A DNA stretch of 45,937 nt. Source: an uncultured Bacteroidota bacterium. GTDB taxonomy: Bacteria > Bacteroidota > Bacteroidia > Bacteroidales > CG2-30-32-10. This document shows positions 2,443-45,937 of the stretch, piece after piece; position 1 is the first letter of the stretch; each line of letters begins with the position of its first letter. The notes beneath the pieces are model-generated. The model worked only from the letters and a program-made list of their open reading frames with translations. It made no database searches and had not been told where the DNA came from. The stretch lies in NCBI GenBank assembly GCA_903889915.1, contig CAISZK010000296.1:1-45937 (forward strand). The letters run 5' to 3'. Both the position numbers and the translations under genes were made by a program.

Positions 2443-4152
2443 ATGAAAAAACTCCTGTTTATCATTTGCATGTTCACCGTTGCAGCCGCCAGCGCACAGC
2501 AGTGGGGCCTCTACACTTTGTACAGCCCCAAAGGCACAAACAAGGCTTACCTGGTTGACACCAACGGCGTGATCTTTAAAACATGGACGTTCCCGATTGA
2601 TAAAAAAACCTGCTTTTCGTCGTACCTCACCCGCGGCGACACGCTGGTGCGAACGGTGATATACCAGGGAATGATCATCACCGGCGGACCTATTTCGGGC
2701 GAAACGCAAAAGGTGGACTGGAACAACAATGTGGATTGGGATTTTATTTACTCCGATTCGAACCACGTTACGCACCACGACATTTGCCCCATGCCCAACG
2801 GCAACGTGCTGCTGATAGCCATTGATGTCAAAACCCCTGCCGAAGCCCTGCAGGCCGGAAGTTCGGTGACCGGCGAAAGATATTCTGAAAAGATACTGGA
2901 AGTGCATCCCACCGGCCCGGCTACCGGAAATATCGTGTGGGAATGGGATCTGTGGGATCATTTATGCCAGCATTACGATGCAACCAAGGACAATTATGTG
3001 ACCTCGCTTGTTCAAAACCCGCAACTGATCTGCCTCAACTACCGCACCGGGCAGGATTTTATGCACCTGAACGGCATTGATTACAACGCTGCGCTTGATC
3101 AGATCACTTTCAGCTCGCTCAAGTACAACGAAATTTATGTGATTGACCACAGCACAACCACTGCCCAGGCTCATGGCCACACAGGCGGAAACTCGGGCAA
3201 AGGTGGCGACCTCATTTACCGTTGGGGCAATGCCGCTGCCTACGGGGTGGCTGATGCCAACAATTTCGACGCGGTGCACGATGCCCATTGGGTGCCTGCC
3301 GACGATCCTTATTTTCCGAATTATTTGTGCGGCTTCAACAACAACGGCGGCACCGGCGGCAATTCATGCGTGGATATTTTTTGCCCGCCATACAACGGAT
3401 ATAATTACAACATCAATCTAGGCTCTGCCTACACTCCTGCAACTTATACGTCGCGCTACAACTCCACAATGTGGACGCAGAACGAAGGCAGCTCGCAGCA
3501 ATTGCCCAATGGAAATACTTTAATTTGCATGTCGTTTCGCGATACGATTTTTGAAATAAATCACGCCGGAACAATTTTGTGGAGCATGGATGCAGGAGGT
3601 GCGGTTTCCACGGCTTATCGCTATTCCAAATGCTTTGTGCGGGGACCTGTGGCAACGGCTGGCGCATCGGCAACAGAGATCGTGAGCGGCGCTGCGGTTA
3701 CATTGAATTCGTCAGCTGCATCGGTCACCGAAGCAAGCCCTGTTTACACTTATTCTTGGACATCGGTTCCTGCCGGTTTCGCATCAACGGCGCAGAACCC
3801 ATTGCTGACACCCGATTCCATAAGAAGATATTTTGTAACCATCACCGACACCACCGTTGGATGTTCCGACACAGCCTCGGTACTTGTGCGCGTTGACACA
3901 CTGACGGGCATCAGTGAATTCAAAAATAACGATGCGCAGCTTGTGGTTTATCCCAATCCTACCACCGGAATTGTAAACATCAGCGGTGAGTTTTTGAACG
4001 ATCAGAATAACGTGTTCATTGTTCACGATCCTTACGGGAAAACAATAAAAATGACTGAAAATAATTCCACACTCAACTTTTCAGGATTTGCAAAAGGCGT
4101 TTATTTCCTTACGGTAAAATCAGGACAAACATATAAAGTCATTTGTCAATAG
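2443..4152 (+). CDS. Secreted aryl-sulfate sulfotransferase (ASST)-like protein with T9SS type A sorting domain
   Basis: Signal peptide MKKLLFIICMFTVAAASAQQ; ASST-like beta-propeller text (HHDICPMPNGNVLLIA, HLNGIDYNAALDQITFSS, DAHWV, QQLPNGNTLICMSF); C-terminal VYPNPTTGIVNISG...GVYFLTVKSG T9SS domain. Confidence 0.85.
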   Translation: MKKLLFIICMFTVAAASAQQWGLYTLYSPKGTNKAYLVDTNGVIFKTWTFPIDKKTCFSSYLTRGDTLVRTVIYQGMIITGGPISGETQKVDWNNNVDWDFIYSDSNHVTHHDICPMPNGNVLLIAIDVKTPAEALQAGSSVTGERYSEKILEVHPTGPATGNIVWEWDLWDHLCQHYDATKDNYVTSLVQNPQLICLNYRTGQDFMHLNGIDYNAALDQITFSSLKYNEIYVIDHSTTTAQAHGHTGGNSGKGGDLIYRWGNAAAYGVADANNFDAVHDAHWVPADDPYFPNYLCGFNNNGGTGGNSCVDIFCPPYNGYNYNINLGSAYTPATYTSRYNSTMWTQNEGSSQQLPNGNTLICMSFRDTIFEINHAGTILWSMDAGGAVSTAYRYSKCFVRGPVATAGASATEIVSGAAVTLNSSAASVTEASPVYTYSWTSVPAGFASTAQNPLLTPDSIRRYFVTITDTTVGCSDTASVLVRVDTLTGISEFKNNDAQLVVYPNPTTGIVNISGEFLNDQNNVFIVHDPYGKTIKMTENNSTLNFSGFAKGVYFLTVKSGQTYKVICQ

Positions 4153-4277
4153 TCAATTAGTCAGTAGTCAATAGTCATAAGTCATTTGCCAATAGTCATT
4201 AGTCATAAGTCATAAGTCAATTGTCAATAGTCATTGTGCTGTCAGTGACCAATGACCAATGACCAATGACCAATGAC
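4152..4277. repeat. Heptamer-type tandem repeat tract (agtcaat/agtcata then ccaatga)
   Basis: agtcaat agtcaatt agtcagt agtcaat agtcata ... ccaatgaccaatgaccaatgaccaatgac; dominant 7-bp period. Confidence 0.85.
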
Positions 4278-26829: not shown

Positions 26830-27456
26830 CTATGCCCGAATTTTACTGTTAACTTTTGCCTTGTAAAGTTTATAGCCTGCGTAAACAATGATGAGGAATA
26901 GTCCAACTACAACAACCATATCAATGGCGCTGCTGTATTTTAGAATTTCATCCCAGTTACTCTTCAGCGTGATGCCGACATAAGTCAGAATGGCGTTCCA
27001 GCAGGCTGCACCTATAATGGTGTAAAGGCAAAACTTCCAGATTTTCATTTTTCCCATCCCTGCCGGTATGGAAATAAGATGTCTTACGACAGGTATAAAA
27101 CGGCAAATTAAAATTGTAAGGTCGCCTTTTTTCTGAAAATATTTTTCTGTAAGGTCAAGGTGGTGTTTGTCGAGCAATAAATATTTCCCAAATCTTTCCA
27201 CCAGTGGCCGACCACCATAATAACCCACATAGTATGAAATCAGTGATCCCACAATACTGCCAAGTGTGCTGAAAAAAACTATTCCGATAAAAGAAAAGTG
27301 TCCTCCTGCGATCAACATTCCTGCAAAAGGCATTACTGCTTCGCTGGGGACAGGAGCCACCATGCTTTCGAGTGCCATGAGAATGAAAATGCCGGCATAG
27401 CCGATGTTTCCTATAAATGCTGTGATGATAGGAACCAGAAATTTTGTTATACCCAT
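26830..27456 (-). CDS. DedA/SNARE-associated family membrane protein
   Basis: VPSEAVMPFAGMLIAGG, STLGSIVGSLISYYVGYYGGRPLVERFGKY, RFIPVVRHLISIPAGMGKM. Confidence 0.9.
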   Translation of the reverse strand: MGITKFLVPIITAFIGNIGYAGIFILMALESMVAPVPSEAVMPFAGMLIAGGHFSFIGIVFFSTLGSIVGSLISYYVGYYGGRPLVERFGKYLLLDKHHLDLTEKYFQKKGDLTILICRFIPVVRHLISIPAGMGKMKIWKFCLYTIIGAACWNAILTYVGITLKSNWDEILKYSSAIDMVVVVGLFLIIVYAGYKLYKAKVNSKIRA

Positions 27457-27468
27457 ACTTTATTTATG

Positions 27469-27545
27469 ATTTAAGATTTTTGATTTGAGATTTACCTGGA
27501 ATTTGGAATTTGAGACTTGGAATTTGGAACTTGGATCTTTTACTT
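27469..27545. repeat. Heptamer tract (ttggaat/ttggaac/ttgagat)
   Basis: tggaatttggaatttgagacttggaatttggaacttgg in the dedA/comA intergenic region. Confidence 0.75.
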
Positions 27546-28343
27546 TGAATCTGGTTTAATTCTCAAATTCTGGAATTCTTCCGGCAGAAACTGGAAGAAA
27601 GTGTCGCCCCTTAGTCCGATGCGTAATGTCTCAAGTGGAATTGCTTCGTTGGGTGCAATATTTCCGAGATTCACATTGGCCCCAAGCATTTTTACAAACC
27701 AAACTTGTTGTGATTTCAGGGGAGCTTCCCAAAGAATCTTGTCCTGGTCAACTTTTGCAACGATCTTGTTCACCAAAGCCACATGTGCATTCCCGTTTGG
27801 CCTGTAGATTCCAACTGTTCCACTTTCTCTTGCTTCAGCAATTACAAAGGAGGAGCCGGCATTCAATTCAGCTTGCATCATTGATATCCATTTGTTAGGC
27901 GCTGTAATGATGCCTGCTTCTTTGGAGCCTACTTCAGAAAGGACTGTATAGTCTTCTGATAATTTTTTGATGTATTCACATTTATCGTCCTGTTCCATTA
28001 AAATTGAACCATCAGAAACTTCAATAGCATCAACTTTAAATTTTTCAATCAGCTTGCGGTATTCTTTGAATTTATCGCGGATGATATAGGCTTCGAAGAG
28101 TGTGCCCCCGAAATATACTTTTATGTTTGCCTCTTTATACAACTGTATTTTTGTCATCACATCTTTTTCGCTCATAACGAAAGAAGTTCCAAAACCCAAC
28201 TTTGCAAAGTCAGTATATTCGCCGCCCGTTGCTATAAAATCTTCGGTCTCGCGAATGCTGAGTCCTTTATCCATTACCATAGTTACTCCGCTCTTTCTTG
28301 GTTTGCAAGGTCTGTCCGGAATATAATTAAGAAGAGATTTCAT
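27540..28343 (-). CDS. Phosphosulfolactate synthase-like protein (ComA family)
   Basis: 267 aa; PRKSGVTMVMDKGLSIRETEDFI, DFAKLGFGTSFV, YFGGTLFEA, DAIEVSDGSI, SEVGSKE, IAEARESGTVGIYRPNG, WEAPLKSQQVWFVKMLGANVNLGNI. Confidence 0.85.
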   Translation of the reverse strand: MKSLLNYIPDRPCKPRKSGVTMVMDKGLSIRETEDFIATGGEYTDFAKLGFGTSFVMSEKDVMTKIQLYKEANIKVYFGGTLFEAYIIRDKFKEYRKLIEKFKVDAIEVSDGSILMEQDDKCEYIKKLSEDYTVLSEVGSKEAGIITAPNKWISMMQAELNAGSSFVIAEARESGTVGIYRPNGNAHVALVNKIVAKVDQDKILWEAPLKSQQVWFVKMLGANVNLGNIAPNEAIPLETLRIGLRGDTFFQFLPEEFQNLRIKPDSK

Positions 28344-29765: not shown

Positions 29766-29822
29766 AACCCCTGCACTCCTAAAAATAAACCTGCAAATGT
29801 AGTGAAAAAATGAATGCGGAAG

Positions 29823-29860
29823 GGGAAATGAAATTGGAAATTGGAAATTGGAAATTTGGA
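29823..29860. repeat. Heptamer tract (ttggaaa)
   Basis: gaaattggaaattggaaattggaaatttgga. Confidence 0.75.
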
Positions 29861-29907
29861 GTGGCAGTGGTAGTAACAACAAACAACAAACAACTAACAA
29901 CTAACCC

Positions 29908-30504
29908 TTACTTCGGGTCTCTTTTCATAAACCAAACGCTGACTCCTTGTTCATCAACTTTCCATGTGTTATAAACTTCAAAACCGAATCTCTGGTAAAC
30001 TATCCTGTTCTGAGGAATTGTGGTTTCGAGAAAGATCGGCAACTTCAGGTCCTTCGAAAGTTTGTAAATATCCTTTTGCAATTCAAAAGCGCCGCCATGG
30101 CCTTTGCCTTCGTCGGAGGCGCCATATAACCAGAAGTAAAGAAAATTTCCTGAAGGCGGCTTCTGACTTTTAAGATAGGCCTGACGCTTCAACACTTCGG
30201 GTATTTTGCGAAAACCAATTGCCCTCAGCATAAGCCGCAATTCATGATAGAGAACCAAAAGTTTGTTGAATTTGGTGTTATACCTGAAAATAACGGCCAC
30301 TGCATTATGGTCCGATGAAAGGTAAACTCCTTTTTTTGCCAGTCCCACATCAAAAAGATATTCAGCAAGGGCTTTGAGTCGTTTGTCTTTTTTGCTGTCG
30401 TTCTTCACAACCCACGTCACACTAGGGTTTCCTTTGAAAGATTCCTCAATTATTTTTACAACTTTGGCTTTATCTTTTTTTGTTGCTGTGAGCATAGAGG
30501 ACAA
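29908..30504 (-). CDS. GNAT family N-acetyltransferase
   Basis: YFWLYGASDEGKGHGGAFELQKDIYKLSKDLKLPIFLETTIPQNRIVYQRFGFEVYNTWKV. Confidence 0.8.
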   Translation of the reverse strand: MSSMLTATKKDKAKVVKIIEESFKGNPSVTWVVKNDSKKDKRLKALAEYLFDVGLAKKGVYLSSDHNAVAVIFRYNTKFNKLLVLYHELRLMLRAIGFRKIPEVLKRQAYLKSQKPPSGNFLYFWLYGASDEGKGHGGAFELQKDIYKLSKDLKLPIFLETTIPQNRIVYQRFGFEVYNTWKVDEQGVSVWFMKRDPK

Positions 30505-30572: not shown

Positions 30573-31259
30573 TCATTTACAATATCCAATTTGATAACCT
30601 AAATGAAATGTAATAATACCGTATGAATGATTAACATGATATGGGTATGCAGGATGTGGTAAAGGAGATGTTGAATCCTTGTACAAGTCTTCATAAACTT
30701 CATCACTTAACAATTTATATCTGAAACCAATGCCCAGATAAAAATCCTTTAACAATTTTTCATGCTCGAGTGTCCATCCTGTTTTAAAAAATAATTCAAA
30801 ATCATTTTTGTTACGTGTCACGACATAATGAAATCCATCATCCTGATATGAGGCGTCTCCTTTATTAAAATGTCCATAACTATATGAGAACATTAATCCC
30901 AGATAATAACGGTGTGTTAAGTATTTTTTCAAACCCACCCGAATCTGAGCTCTTCCGTAATAAAAAAACGGATCATAAAGTCCCAGTGAGTAATTATCAT
31001 TAATTCGACTTTTCTCTCCATAAGGTATGCTATACGAAAGCATTGACTCGAAGTATTTCTCGTTACTTATTCTATGAGTAAAAGTAATTTTAACGTCTCT
31101 AAAGATTAATGCTTCAAGATTTATTGTATAAGCATTTTGAAAAGTTGTAGTGTCTCGGTTTTTTTTTCGATAATAATTTTGGTAGTATGTGGTAAATCTT
31201 TTTTGACCAAAAGTAGTTAATGAAGAAAGCATTAATATCAAAAATATGATTCGGTTCAT
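30573..31259 (-). CDS. Hypothetical secreted / outer-membrane beta-barrel-like protein
   Basis: 228 aa; signal peptide MNRIIFLILMLSSLTTFGQ; alternating aromatic strands. Confidence 0.65.
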   Translation of the reverse strand: MNRIIFLILMLSSLTTFGQKRFTTYYQNYYRKKNRDTTTFQNAYTINLEALIFRDVKITFTHRISNEKYFESMLSYSIPYGEKSRINDNYSLGLYDPFFYYGRAQIRVGLKKYLTHRYYLGLMFSYSYGHFNKGDASYQDDGFHYVVTRNKNDFELFFKTGWTLEHEKLLKDFYLGIGFRYKLLSDEVYEDLYKDSTSPLPHPAYPYHVNHSYGIITFHLGYQIGYCK

Positions 31260-31301: not shown

Positions 31302-31544
31302 TTATTTCTCTGTTATCCATTTGTCAATTTCCATTTCTACCTGTTCATTTGTGAAATATTCTCCTTTGGCAATTTGTTCTTTACCTTCTTTGATCTTCTT
31401 TTGTTGTCCAGGAGTGGTATTGTAAATTGTGGTTTCTGTTTTGGTTTCAATTATCGTATTAATGACCGCAAGAAAAGACTTGTCATTAGTCTCCGCAAAT
31501 CTGTATAATAATATTTTTTTCAATTTAAAGGTTGCTATAATCAA
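31302..31544 (-). CDS. Small antitoxin-like protein (no toxin partner recognised)
   Basis: 80 aa; TPGQQKKIKEGKEQIAKGEYFTNEQVEMEIDKWITEK resembles C-termini of Bacteroidota addiction-module antitoxins. Confidence 0.55.
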   Translation of the reverse strand: MIIATFKLKKILLYRFAETNDKSFLAVINTIIETKTETTIYNTTPGQQKKIKEGKEQIAKGEYFTNEQVEMEIDKWITEK

Positions 31545-31680
31545 AAACTTTAATGCAAAGTTACTAATTTGAATAGAATTGACAATTTTTAGAAAGGTGT
31601 TAATTCTTCATGATATGTTGTTGATTTTTATTGAATGAAGATAATCTAAATAACTTTTTGGGAAATCAACGCCAACAAAG

Positions 31681-31915
31681 AGTGAAAGCAAAATACATCG
31701 TTTGCCTCACCTCCTAACAGGGAGTGAAAGCAAAAGACATCGTTTGCCTCACCTCCTAACAGGGAGTGAGGCAAAAGACATCGTTTGCCTCACCTCCTAA
31801 CAAGGAGTGAAGGCAAAAGACTTCGTTTGCCTCACCTCCTAACAGGGAGTGAAGGCAAAAGACATTGTTTGCCTTACCTCCCAACAAGGAGTGAAGGCAA
31901 GTAACTTTTTTCGCT
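31681..31915. repeat. 42-bp tandem array (5+ units) of two 21-bp near-inverted halves
   Basis: Anchor agtgA at 31681, 31723, 31765, 31806, 31848, 31890 (period 42, one 41). Unit agtgaaagcaaaagacatcgt|ttgcctcacctcctaacaggg; aggagtgaaggcaaa pairs with tttgcctcacctcct. Confidence 0.93.
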
Positions 31916-31995: not shown

Positions 31996-32315
31996 ATGTG
32001 AACGAGGTGTTATGATATAATGTAGAGGTATTACTACAGTTAGTTGAGGTATAACCGGAAAATGCCTCAGCAAAATAGGGGAATGACGATGCCAAATCGG
32101 TTTTTGCTGAAGCAACAATTGATTTTGCTGATGCATTATCGGTTTTTGCTGAAGCATAAATGATTTTTGCTGAGACAAGATTGGTTTTTGCTGAGGCAAT
32201 ATCTAATCTTGCTGACGCATTATTGGTTTATGCTGAAGCCAAAATGATTTTTGCTTAAGTATAAATCATTTTGGCATCAGCATTAGTGAATCTTGCAGAG
32301 ATGTTTTTGTATAAT
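31996..32315. repeat. Degenerate 21-bp tandem array (about 15 units)
   Basis: gctgaagc-type anchors at 32106, 32127, 32148, 32169, 32190, 32211, 32232, 32253, 32274, 32295 (exactly 21 apart); weaker in-phase units at 32085, 32064, 32043, 32022, 32001. Confidence 0.9.
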
Positions 32316-32410
32316 ATTGAGGTTTGTGGTTGACGGTTAAAGTGTGAATAGGGTTGTGAAAATCAATGGATAGATGGATTTTAAACATTAAACTTTGAAC
32401 AAAATCTTAA

Positions 32411-32448
32411 AAAAAAAAGACGAAGCCATCTGCCCCGTCTTTTTTTAT
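32411..32448 (-). terminator. Rho-independent terminator downstream of M13 peptidase (symmetric)
   Basis: aaaaaaagacg-aagccatctgccc-cgtcttttttt. Confidence 0.75.
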
Positions 32449-32469
32449 TGAATGATTCTCTGTTTTCTT

Positions 32470-34518
32470 CTACCAGATCTTCACCCTTTTGTTTTCGTCT
32501 CTCCACATTTTATCACCTTTTTTAATGCCAAAGGTCTTGTAAAATTCGGGCATGTTTTCAAGTGGTCCCAGAACGCGGAATTTGGCAGGCGAATGTTCGT
32601 TGCTTTTCACCTGGTTTGCTACTGCTTCGGGGCGCTCGTTGATCATCCATGAGAATGCATAACCAAGGAAAAACCTCTGGTCAGGGTTCAATCCTGCCAC
32701 CATGGTATTGTTTTTATACTGATCGGTTTTCTTATAAGCTTCGTAAGCCATGATGATCCCGCCAAGGTCGGCAATGTTTTCGCCCTGTGTCAGCGAGCCG
32801 TTGATGTGCAGTGTGTCAACAGCAACAAACTCGTTAAACTGGTCAACGATCATTTTTGTTTTGCCATAGAACTTGGTGCTGTCTTCAGGAGTCCACCAGT
32901 TGCTGAGGTTGCCAAGTTCGTTATATTTGCTGCCCTGGTCGTCAAAACCGTGGGTGATCTCATGACCGAAAGTAGAGCCAACAATTGAATAAAGCAGGGC
33001 ATCGTCGGCCATTTTGCGCTCATAACCAGGGATAATAATATTGCAACCGGGAACAACGATCTCATTGTTCGATGGGTTGTAATAAGCATTGTAGGTCTGG
33101 GGTTCCATGTCCCATTCAGTGCGGTCAACGGCTTTGCCAAATTTGTTGATCATGTAATTAAACTCCCATTTGTTGGCAGAAATCACATTCTTCACATACG
33201 AACTGCGGTCAATGATCATCGCACTAAGATCTTTCCATTTGTCGGGATAACCAACTTTCATAATTACTGAGCTGAGTTTTTTCAGCGCTTTTTCCTTGGT
33301 TGCAGCGCTCATCCAGTCGAGGTTTTTGATGCGTTGTGCATAAACTGTTTTAATGGCGTTTCCAATTTCAACCAGTTTTTCTTTGGTTCCTTTTGGCAGA
33401 TAATCGTCAACATAAACTTTGCCTATCAGTTCACCCAGTGCGCCGTCGGTTTGTTCAACTACGCGTTTCCATCTTGGTTTGGGTTCTTTAACCCCGCGAA
33501 GAGTTGTTGAATAAAAGCTGAAAATTTCCTTATAAGTTTTGTCGTCCATATAGCGGGAAAGGCCTCTGACAAATTGGTATTTCAGGTAATCTTTCCATTC
33601 GTCAATTGAATAGGATTTCAGGTAGCCATTCAAAGCCTTTAGGAATTCGGGCTGACCCACAACAACGGTGTCAACATTTTTCAAACCCACTTCTTTGATA
33701 AAAATATTCCAGTCGAGGTTAGGAGTTGATTCCGAAAGTTTCTTTAAAGTCATTTTATTGTAGTTTGCCAATGGGTCGCGTGTGTCTTCGCGTTTGCGCG
33801 ATGTTTTGGCAATTGCAGTTTCGAGTTTCATGGTTTTATCAGCGGCGGCAGTTGCTTTGGCGTCATCATAACCCATGATCTCAAACATGTTTTTAAGATG
33901 CGTGATGAACTTGGCGCGGATGCTTACAGCCCTTTCGTCGTTGTCAACATAAAACGTGCGATCGGGGAGACTCAGTCCACCCTGTGCAACAAAAACAGCG
34001 TATTTGCTGCTGATCTTATCATCCTGGCCTACGCCAAAACCAAACAGCGGAGAGCCGGAAACAGTGTGTATGTATGCTGCTTCTTTCACAACTCCGTTGA
34101 TGTCCTTGATAGCATCAATGGCATCGAGGTCGCTTTTCAAATCGGTAATACCTTTTTTATTCAGGTTTACACTGTCCATACCTGTAGAGAAAAAGTCGCC
34201 GATCTTTTGTTTGTTCGAACCCTTTTCGGCGTCTTTGGTTGCCGATGATGTTTCGCAGATATGGCGTATCTGAGCATTGATAGTGTCGCCAATCATTTGC
34301 CACAGGCCATTGCTTTGTTCGCTGGCAGGAATAGGGTTGTTTTTAAACCATTTGTTATTTGCATAAAGAAAGAAATCATCGCCGGGTTTGATAGTCGAGT
34401 CAATGTGCGACACAAGTGCATCGGGCGCTTCGGCTTCTTTTGTTGCATGCTTGCATGATGTGATAGCGAATGCTGCTGTTGCAACAATGATCGCTGAGTA
34501 AATGAAACGTTTTTTCAT
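32470..34518 (-). CDS. M13 family (neprilysin/PepO-like) zinc metallopeptidase lipoprotein
   Basis: 682 aa; lipobox AITSCK; VPAGC-like N/I region; GSTFGHEITHGFDDQG zinc motif; GSLTQGENIADLGG. Confidence 0.95.
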   Translation of the reverse strand: MKKRFIYSAIIVATAAFAITSCKHATKEAEAPDALVSHIDSTIKPGDDFFLYANNKWFKNNPIPASEQSNGLWQMIGDTINAQIRHICETSSATKDAEKGSNKQKIGDFFSTGMDSVNLNKKGITDLKSDLDAIDAIKDINGVVKEAAYIHTVSGSPLFGFGVGQDDKISSKYAVFVAQGGLSLPDRTFYVDNDERAVSIRAKFITHLKNMFEIMGYDDAKATAAADKTMKLETAIAKTSRKREDTRDPLANYNKMTLKKLSESTPNLDWNIFIKEVGLKNVDTVVVGQPEFLKALNGYLKSYSIDEWKDYLKYQFVRGLSRYMDDKTYKEIFSFYSTTLRGVKEPKPRWKRVVEQTDGALGELIGKVYVDDYLPKGTKEKLVEIGNAIKTVYAQRIKNLDWMSAATKEKALKKLSSVIMKVGYPDKWKDLSAMIIDRSSYVKNVISANKWEFNYMINKFGKAVDRTEWDMEPQTYNAYYNPSNNEIVVPGCNIIIPGYERKMADDALLYSIVGSTFGHEITHGFDDQGSKYNELGNLSNWWTPEDSTKFYGKTKMIVDQFNEFVAVDTLHINGSLTQGENIADLGGIIMAYEAYKKTDQYKNNTMVAGLNPDQRFFLGYAFSWMINERPEAVANQVKSNEHSPAKFRVLGPLENMPEFYKTFGIKKGDKMWRDENKRVKIW

Positions 34519-43575: not shown

Positions 43576-43705
43576 AAAATTCCAAATTCCAAATTCCAAA
43601 ATCCAAAATCCAAAATCCAAATTCCAAAATCTAAATTCCAAAATCCAAAATCCAAATTCCAAATTCCAAAATCCAAAATCCAAAATCCAAAATCCAATAT
43701 CCAAC
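43576..43705. repeat. Heptamer tract (ccaaatt/ccaaaat, about 18 units)
   Basis: aattccaaattccaaattccaaaatccaaaatccaaaatcc... strict 7-bp period. Confidence 0.95.
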
Positions 43706-45579: not shown

Positions 45580-45694
45580 AGTGTACTTTCTGTAATAAAA
45601 AACAACCTGCTAAAAGCCTCCCTTTTTCCAAATGAACCATAAAAACTGTAATATTTTATGTTATTGATCCCGAATTTTTACCATTGATTTTTTG

Positions 45695-45937
45695 CTCCAA
45701 ACCAGTGCTGGTTTGAATCAAACCAGCACTGGTTTGATTCAAACTATGAGTAGAATGATTCAAACCAACACTGGTTTGATTCAAACTGCGAGTGGAATGA
45801 TTCAAACCAACACTGGTTTGATTCAAACTGCGAGTGGAATGATTCAAACCAGCACTGGTTTGATTCAAACTGCGAGTGGAACGATTCAAACCAGCACTGG
45901 TTTGATTCAAACTGCGAGTGGAATGATTCAAACCAGC
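45695..45937. repeat. 42-bp tandem array (21-bp half-units) running off the window edge
   Basis: Unit ttcaaaccagcactggtttga|ttcaaactgcgagtggaatga repeated about 5 times; first half is a dyad tcaaaccag-ca-ctggtttga. Confidence 0.93.

Follow-up and report, generated by a model that had tools for sequence, protein, structure and literature searches.

A degenerate 21-bp intergenic array and a possible class of repeats phased to two helical turns in uncultured Bacteroidota

In a non-coding gap of the window, which is the whole 45,937-nt stretch of DNA that was analysed, a long degenerate array repeats at 21-bp steps, and the question is what kind of element such an array could be. The earlier note, made from the letters, had offered a decayed coding repeat, a structured RNA, or a DNA element with a phase of two helical turns. 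The autocorrelation it had proposed as a check showed a 21-bp peak far above shuffled sequence, identity at lag 21 over 31996-32315 being 0.60 in comparison to 0.275 in 500 dinucleotide shuffles (z 12.9), and the harmonics at lags 42, 63, 84, 105, and 126 were high too, while no 7-bp signal was found in the array (z 0.2 at lag 7 and 1.0 at lag 14). The array was independently recovered by TRF; its coordinates and those of its surroundings are collected in Table 1.

With at most one mismatch, the motif TTGCTGA falls in a single phase at 32104, 32125, 32146, 32167, 32188, 32209, 32230, 32251, and 32293, and the unit TTTTGCTGA has a ninth forward copy at 32291 in addition to the eight of the core. 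The anchor, described before as ten units at 21-bp steps, thus consists of nine forward units in one phase, and the slot at 32270 holds the inverted motif. The inverted motif TCAGCAA, overlooked in the earlier note, is found at 32067 and 32277, a spacing of exactly 210 bp (10 x 21). The weaker in-phase units that had been reported on the left are present to about 32001, one of them (32060) being inverted, and similar units reach about 32332 on the right. Inverted units were detected by motif search, as the profile search is too strict for those of the focal array. When the 332 bp were aligned to a profile with slips allowed, 112 mismatches to the consensus and 0 phase slips were counted, which bears out the strict phase claimed in spite of heavy divergence. 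The focal array is a single occurrence within its own genome, and a search of 58 relatives with it gave one weak match of 32 bp. No plasmid or phage match was found for it either, and a phage or plasmid origin was rejected on the absence of database matches.

Table 1. Positions, strands, and properties of the arrays, units, and neighbouring features in the window
Feature	Position	Strand	Description
Focal array	32001..32332	.	~16 degenerate 21-bp units; consensus TTTTGCTGAAGCATTATTGGT; per-unit dyad TGCTgaAGCA
Core of focal array	32102..32269	+	8 consecutive forward units TTTTGCTGA, <=1 mismatch, at 32102 + 21n, exact 21-bp steps
Inverted unit on 21-bp grid	32060..32080	-	TGCCTCAGCAAAA
Inverted unit on 21-bp grid	32270..32290	-	20-bp hairpin with 32230-32256
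Second array, same gap	31680..31900	.	5.3 units of 41-42 bp
Third array of the class	45691..45937	.	21/42-bp units, palindrome AAACCAGCACTGGTTT, runs off contig end
Neighbour gene, M13-family metallopeptidase (PepO-like)	32470..34518	-	682 aa
Probable intrinsic terminator of M13 peptidase gene	32409..32449	-	between gene and array
Doubtful ORF	31302-31544		80 aa
Next convincing gene on the opposite side	30573..31259	-	228 aa, without Pfam match

The gap that holds the focal array is about 900 bp long and lies between the M13 peptidase gene and the short doubtful ORF. Within the second array of the same gap, the inverted repeats GTGAGGCAAA/TTTGCCTCAC and CTCC/GGAG have their centres about 21 bp apart. 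In the relatives of the order that were checked, the region 3' of the M13 peptidase gene contained neither an array or repeat nor an intact ORF, and the array was therefore rejected as a conserved partner of that gene. In a genome from another family of the order (G007), a 21-bp array was observed 5' of the M13 peptidase gene (L149:5124-5350).

The array is one of many. A lag-identity scan was carried out on 551 kb of the window's genome, picked regardless of arrays, and the results showed 17 arrays with a 21n-bp period, or about 31 per Mb in comparison to 1.8 per Mb in block-shuffled sequence; by extrapolation, the whole genome contains perhaps 150 to 170 such arrays. Arrays of the 7-bp type form a separate and abundant class in the same sample, at about 112 per Mb in comparison to 1.8 per Mb after block shuffling, and they are far rarer in the other sampled families of the order. 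A similar scan of 200 kb of E. coli K-12 gave zero arrays of period 21 or 41. The class extends to two further genomes from the family and to several more families within the order; its periods are 21, 41, and 42 in the congeners G199 and G096 and 22 in G169. Of the 69 arrays judged non-coding over all samples, with a fundamental period between 8 and 60 bp, 34 have periods of 20-22 bp and 17 of 40-43 bp, with a single array at 30-33 bp. It is this clustering of the sister arrays which makes a DNA element in step with two turns of the helix the best fit of the readings first proposed, and two and four helical turns would, judging from the lengths, be the simplest common factor of the periods.

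Several other common factors can be set aside. Because a period of 41 is a multiple of neither 3 nor 7, heptad coding and a heptamer origin both fail for the class, and descent from the 7-bp repeats of the genome was rejected on this ground as well as on the absent 7-bp signal, the mean lag-7 match of the 21-bp class being slightly under expectation. No A/T periodicity of 10-11 bp was found inside the units, so intrinsic curvature by phased A-tracts is not the common factor and was rejected. Nor is it the letters: in 39 arrays the observed mean similarity of units between arrays was 7.07 in comparison to 7.04 in the null, a few pairs excepted, and since the unit sequences are different at each locus, ordinary sequence-specific binding is not the common factor. 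Arrays which have a common step and unlike sequences point to a structure or process at the DNA level and not to a broken gene. Two 22-bp arrays of G169 (L144:7326-7501 and L145:11796-11998) have the motif TTAACTAGTTA / CACCG(C)GGTGAA in common, and for this reason the arrays of that genome look like one sequence family.

What the arrays do have in common besides the step is symmetry. Against a control in which the 21 (or 41-42) columns were permuted, a significant dyad (p<=0.05) was found in 31 of 52 arrays, the focal array having a p of 0.005-0.01, and about 40% of the arrays were without one. In the arrays with a significant dyad, double changes that keep the pairing numbered 138 in comparison to 96 in shuffles (the maximum of 200 being 117), a count uncorrected for the kinship of units. 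In G199, forward TTTAGGT blocks at phase 11 flank both sides of an ACCTAAA block at phase 2, and as the forward blocks share one phase across the inverted block, the grid is fixed while the orientation of the units is free.

As to indels, 17 phase slips were counted across the class against 5293 mismatches to consensus (1 per 311), in comparison to 3 indels and 106 substitutions in the non-coding flanks of the paralogous loci described below, a contrast which is suggestive of indel scarcity but biased, as regular phase was itself the basis of detection and duplications spanning several units raise the mismatch count. The proposal that indels are selected against is accordingly consistent with the class, and for the focal array by itself the data are not decisive. 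All 52 arrays fall outside called genes, genes having been called by ORF length only and arrays judged as coding having been removed beforehand. The neighbouring genes are convergent in 14 cases, divergent in 10, and tandem in 19, with no link to gene or orientation. Between arrays and the gene ends that face them, terminators were no more frequent (18 of 52) than in control gaps (35 of 108), and a role as terminator was rejected on this frequency and on the neighbours lying in every orientation.

The letters of the arrays change quickly. At the paralogous loci L045:16087-16523 and L112:6197-6614, which are a natural experiment in array evolution, the flanks are about 80% identical right up to the array, the array letters are largely replaced, and the 21-bp frame is kept with the dyad in the same place, the dyad of L112 being by itself not significant. 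Between G201 and G199, whose neighbouring genes are 82-93% identical, none of 8 arrays could be aligned in place in the queried regions. A segment of about 446 bp that includes one G199 array (L175:3190-3635, G199:C1) is cleanly absent in G201, where the flanks meet within about 8 bp, and CCCCAT stands near both of its edges in G199, so that either deletion by microhomology or duplication of a target may have occurred. Other G199 arrays lie at insertions or rearrangements relative to G201, some of their flanks themselves being unalignable, and some have partial relatives elsewhere in G199 or G201. Within genus g96 the arrays differ between species; one array 5' of a congener gene in both G199 and G096 has a common period of 41, with a unit similarity that is not significant in this one case. 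Two G199 loci (L173:7952-8222 and L177:19274-19351) are dispersed short repeats with many G201 matches, and they apparently stand outside the 21-bp class.

The class is thus non-coding, phase-locked, dyad-bearing, and fast-evolving, and its action would be at the DNA level. Our preferred reading, held tentatively, is that the array belongs, as a single locus, to a lineage-wide, DNA-level class of phased architectural sites made of two-helical-turn quasi-palindromes. Quasi-palindromes of about 21 bp would form a lattice of dyads at one-helical-turn spacing, along which putative two-fold symmetric proteins, of a nucleoid or architectural kind that reads shape over sequence, could stack on one face of the helix. 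Side-by-side stacking would retain the step and the symmetry while the letters drift, and the letters themselves may be made uniform through unequal exchange and through template switching between units (concerted evolution). The effect would probably be local, the DNA between transcription units being stiffened, looped, or insulated. Several observations count against this reading: even closely related genomes differ by loss or replacement of arrays, as would be expected of a dispensable element, the significant dyad is missing in about 40% of them, and neither a shared unit sequence nor A/T phasing within units is common to the class. A further reading, which we consider doubtful, is that selection keeps a dyad per helical turn over 300-450 bp, and not the letters, for a symmetric protein or a supercoiled structure at about 150 intergenic sites, and that the arrays are the bacterial counterpart of sequence-independent phased chromatin sites.

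The most serious competitor, nearly as probable, is that the arrays are a functionless by-product of mutation, in which hairpin-prone short repeats slip and duplicate, template switching in quasi-palindromes and unequal exchange keep both orientations alike, and arrays survive where they are harmless, between genes. The fast turnover, including the clean absence in G201 of the first G199 array, is what such a process would produce, and so are inverted units that stay in phase, unit sequences that are unrelated, and the lack of any tie to neighbouring genes or their orientation. Slippage, however, gives no obvious cause for periods of 20-22 and 40-43 bp with almost nothing between, and it leaves the scarcity of indels unaccounted for; the architectural site is placed slightly ahead because the preferred lengths are unexplained by slippage alone.

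Much less probable is that the arrays are mobile or recombination-associated, being sites that insertions and rearrangements target or the scars they leave. Several of them do lie at synteny breakpoints or insertion sites between relatives, and for a few, related copies are present at other sites of the genome, but shared ends, terminal repeats, and an associated enzyme are lacking, and an all-against-all comparison of flanks gave related flanks in the one paralogous pair only, without shared mobile-element ends, so that ends common to the arrays were rejected. Equally improbable is a structured RNA, in which the array would be transcribed and form long imperfect hairpins. The focal array does fold far better than shuffles (z -7.3, and -11.0 for the adjoining array at 31680-31900), and some of the changes are paired; fold scores, however, rise with dyads whatever the function, the genes around arrays stand in mixed orientations, divergent ones included, a terminator stands between the focal array and the upstream gene, and an Rfam search with the array gave no match at the gathering score, just generic hairpin models far below it. 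A decayed coding repeat, that is, what is left of a coiled-coil gene whose repeats were 7 residues long, is hardly credible: 21 is a multiple of 3 and the FAEA-like heptads of a plus-strand frame had been quoted correctly, interrupted by stops as claimed, but every frame of the focal array has stops, open frames over 27 arrays are near chance (16 in comparison to 11.2 expected from permuted columns), the peptides of different arrays are unrelated, sister arrays have periods of 22 bp and of 41 bp, the latter unable to encode heptads in frame, and the repeat-free 3' sides of the M13 peptidase gene in the order genomes examined revealed no intact homologous ORF that would make the array a pseudogene, and a coding origin was rejected on frames, stops, and peptides.

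Among known systems, the BIMEs (arrays of REP or palindromic units) of E. coli and its relatives are intergenic, multi-copy, and present in both orientations, with units of about 20-40 bp. Palindromic units in mixed orientation occur here as well, in the dyads and the inverted in-phase units; the key difference is that BIMEs follow one genome-wide consensus, while here each array has its own sequence, with unit similarity at the level of the permuted null in all but a few pairs, and it is the step length which is constant. Plasmid replication iterons, with tandem units of 17-22 bp, are likewise phased to about two turns of the helix, and they form one array next to a rep gene, whereas some 170 unrelated arrays are estimated here and no replication initiator gene was found beside the focal array, whose flanks are the M13 peptidase and the 228-aa protein.

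The class belongs among the bacterial intergenic minisatellites, the focal array consisting of head-to-tail non-coding units within the 10-100 bp range, and a step of two or four helical turns common to unrelated sequences is what sets it apart. Like bacterial minisatellites (VNTRs) and the unstable intergenic tandem repeats of freshwater Planctomycetota (PMC9426551), the arrays are degenerate, lie between genes, and change quickly among relatives, but the accessible part of that report describes neither clustering at two and four turns nor a dyad lattice. A literature search, covering mainly journals outside subscription, gave no report of arrays of unrelated sequence with a common two-turn period. 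Tandem repeats are usually classed by sequence, and here the step and the symmetry are common across loci and families with the letters left free. If the arrays are selected, they would be a DNA element that is recognised through its geometry; if they are mutational, the process by which repeats are made and kept in these bacteria would be tuned to the helical repeat.

Heptameric intergenic repeats, such as GGGAATC in Xanthomonas and GGGGA(T/C)T in Nostoc (PMC4692102), likewise form numerous intergenic tandem arrays, which vary among relatives and in some cases can form inverted repeats; they differ in having 7-bp units of one motif family, and the focal array has no 7-bp period. Tandem repeats of 7 bp also occur in the window, at 4137-4277, 27441-27577, 29792-29943, and 43577-43704 (AGTCAAT, TGACCAA, GAAATTG, and AAAATCC types).
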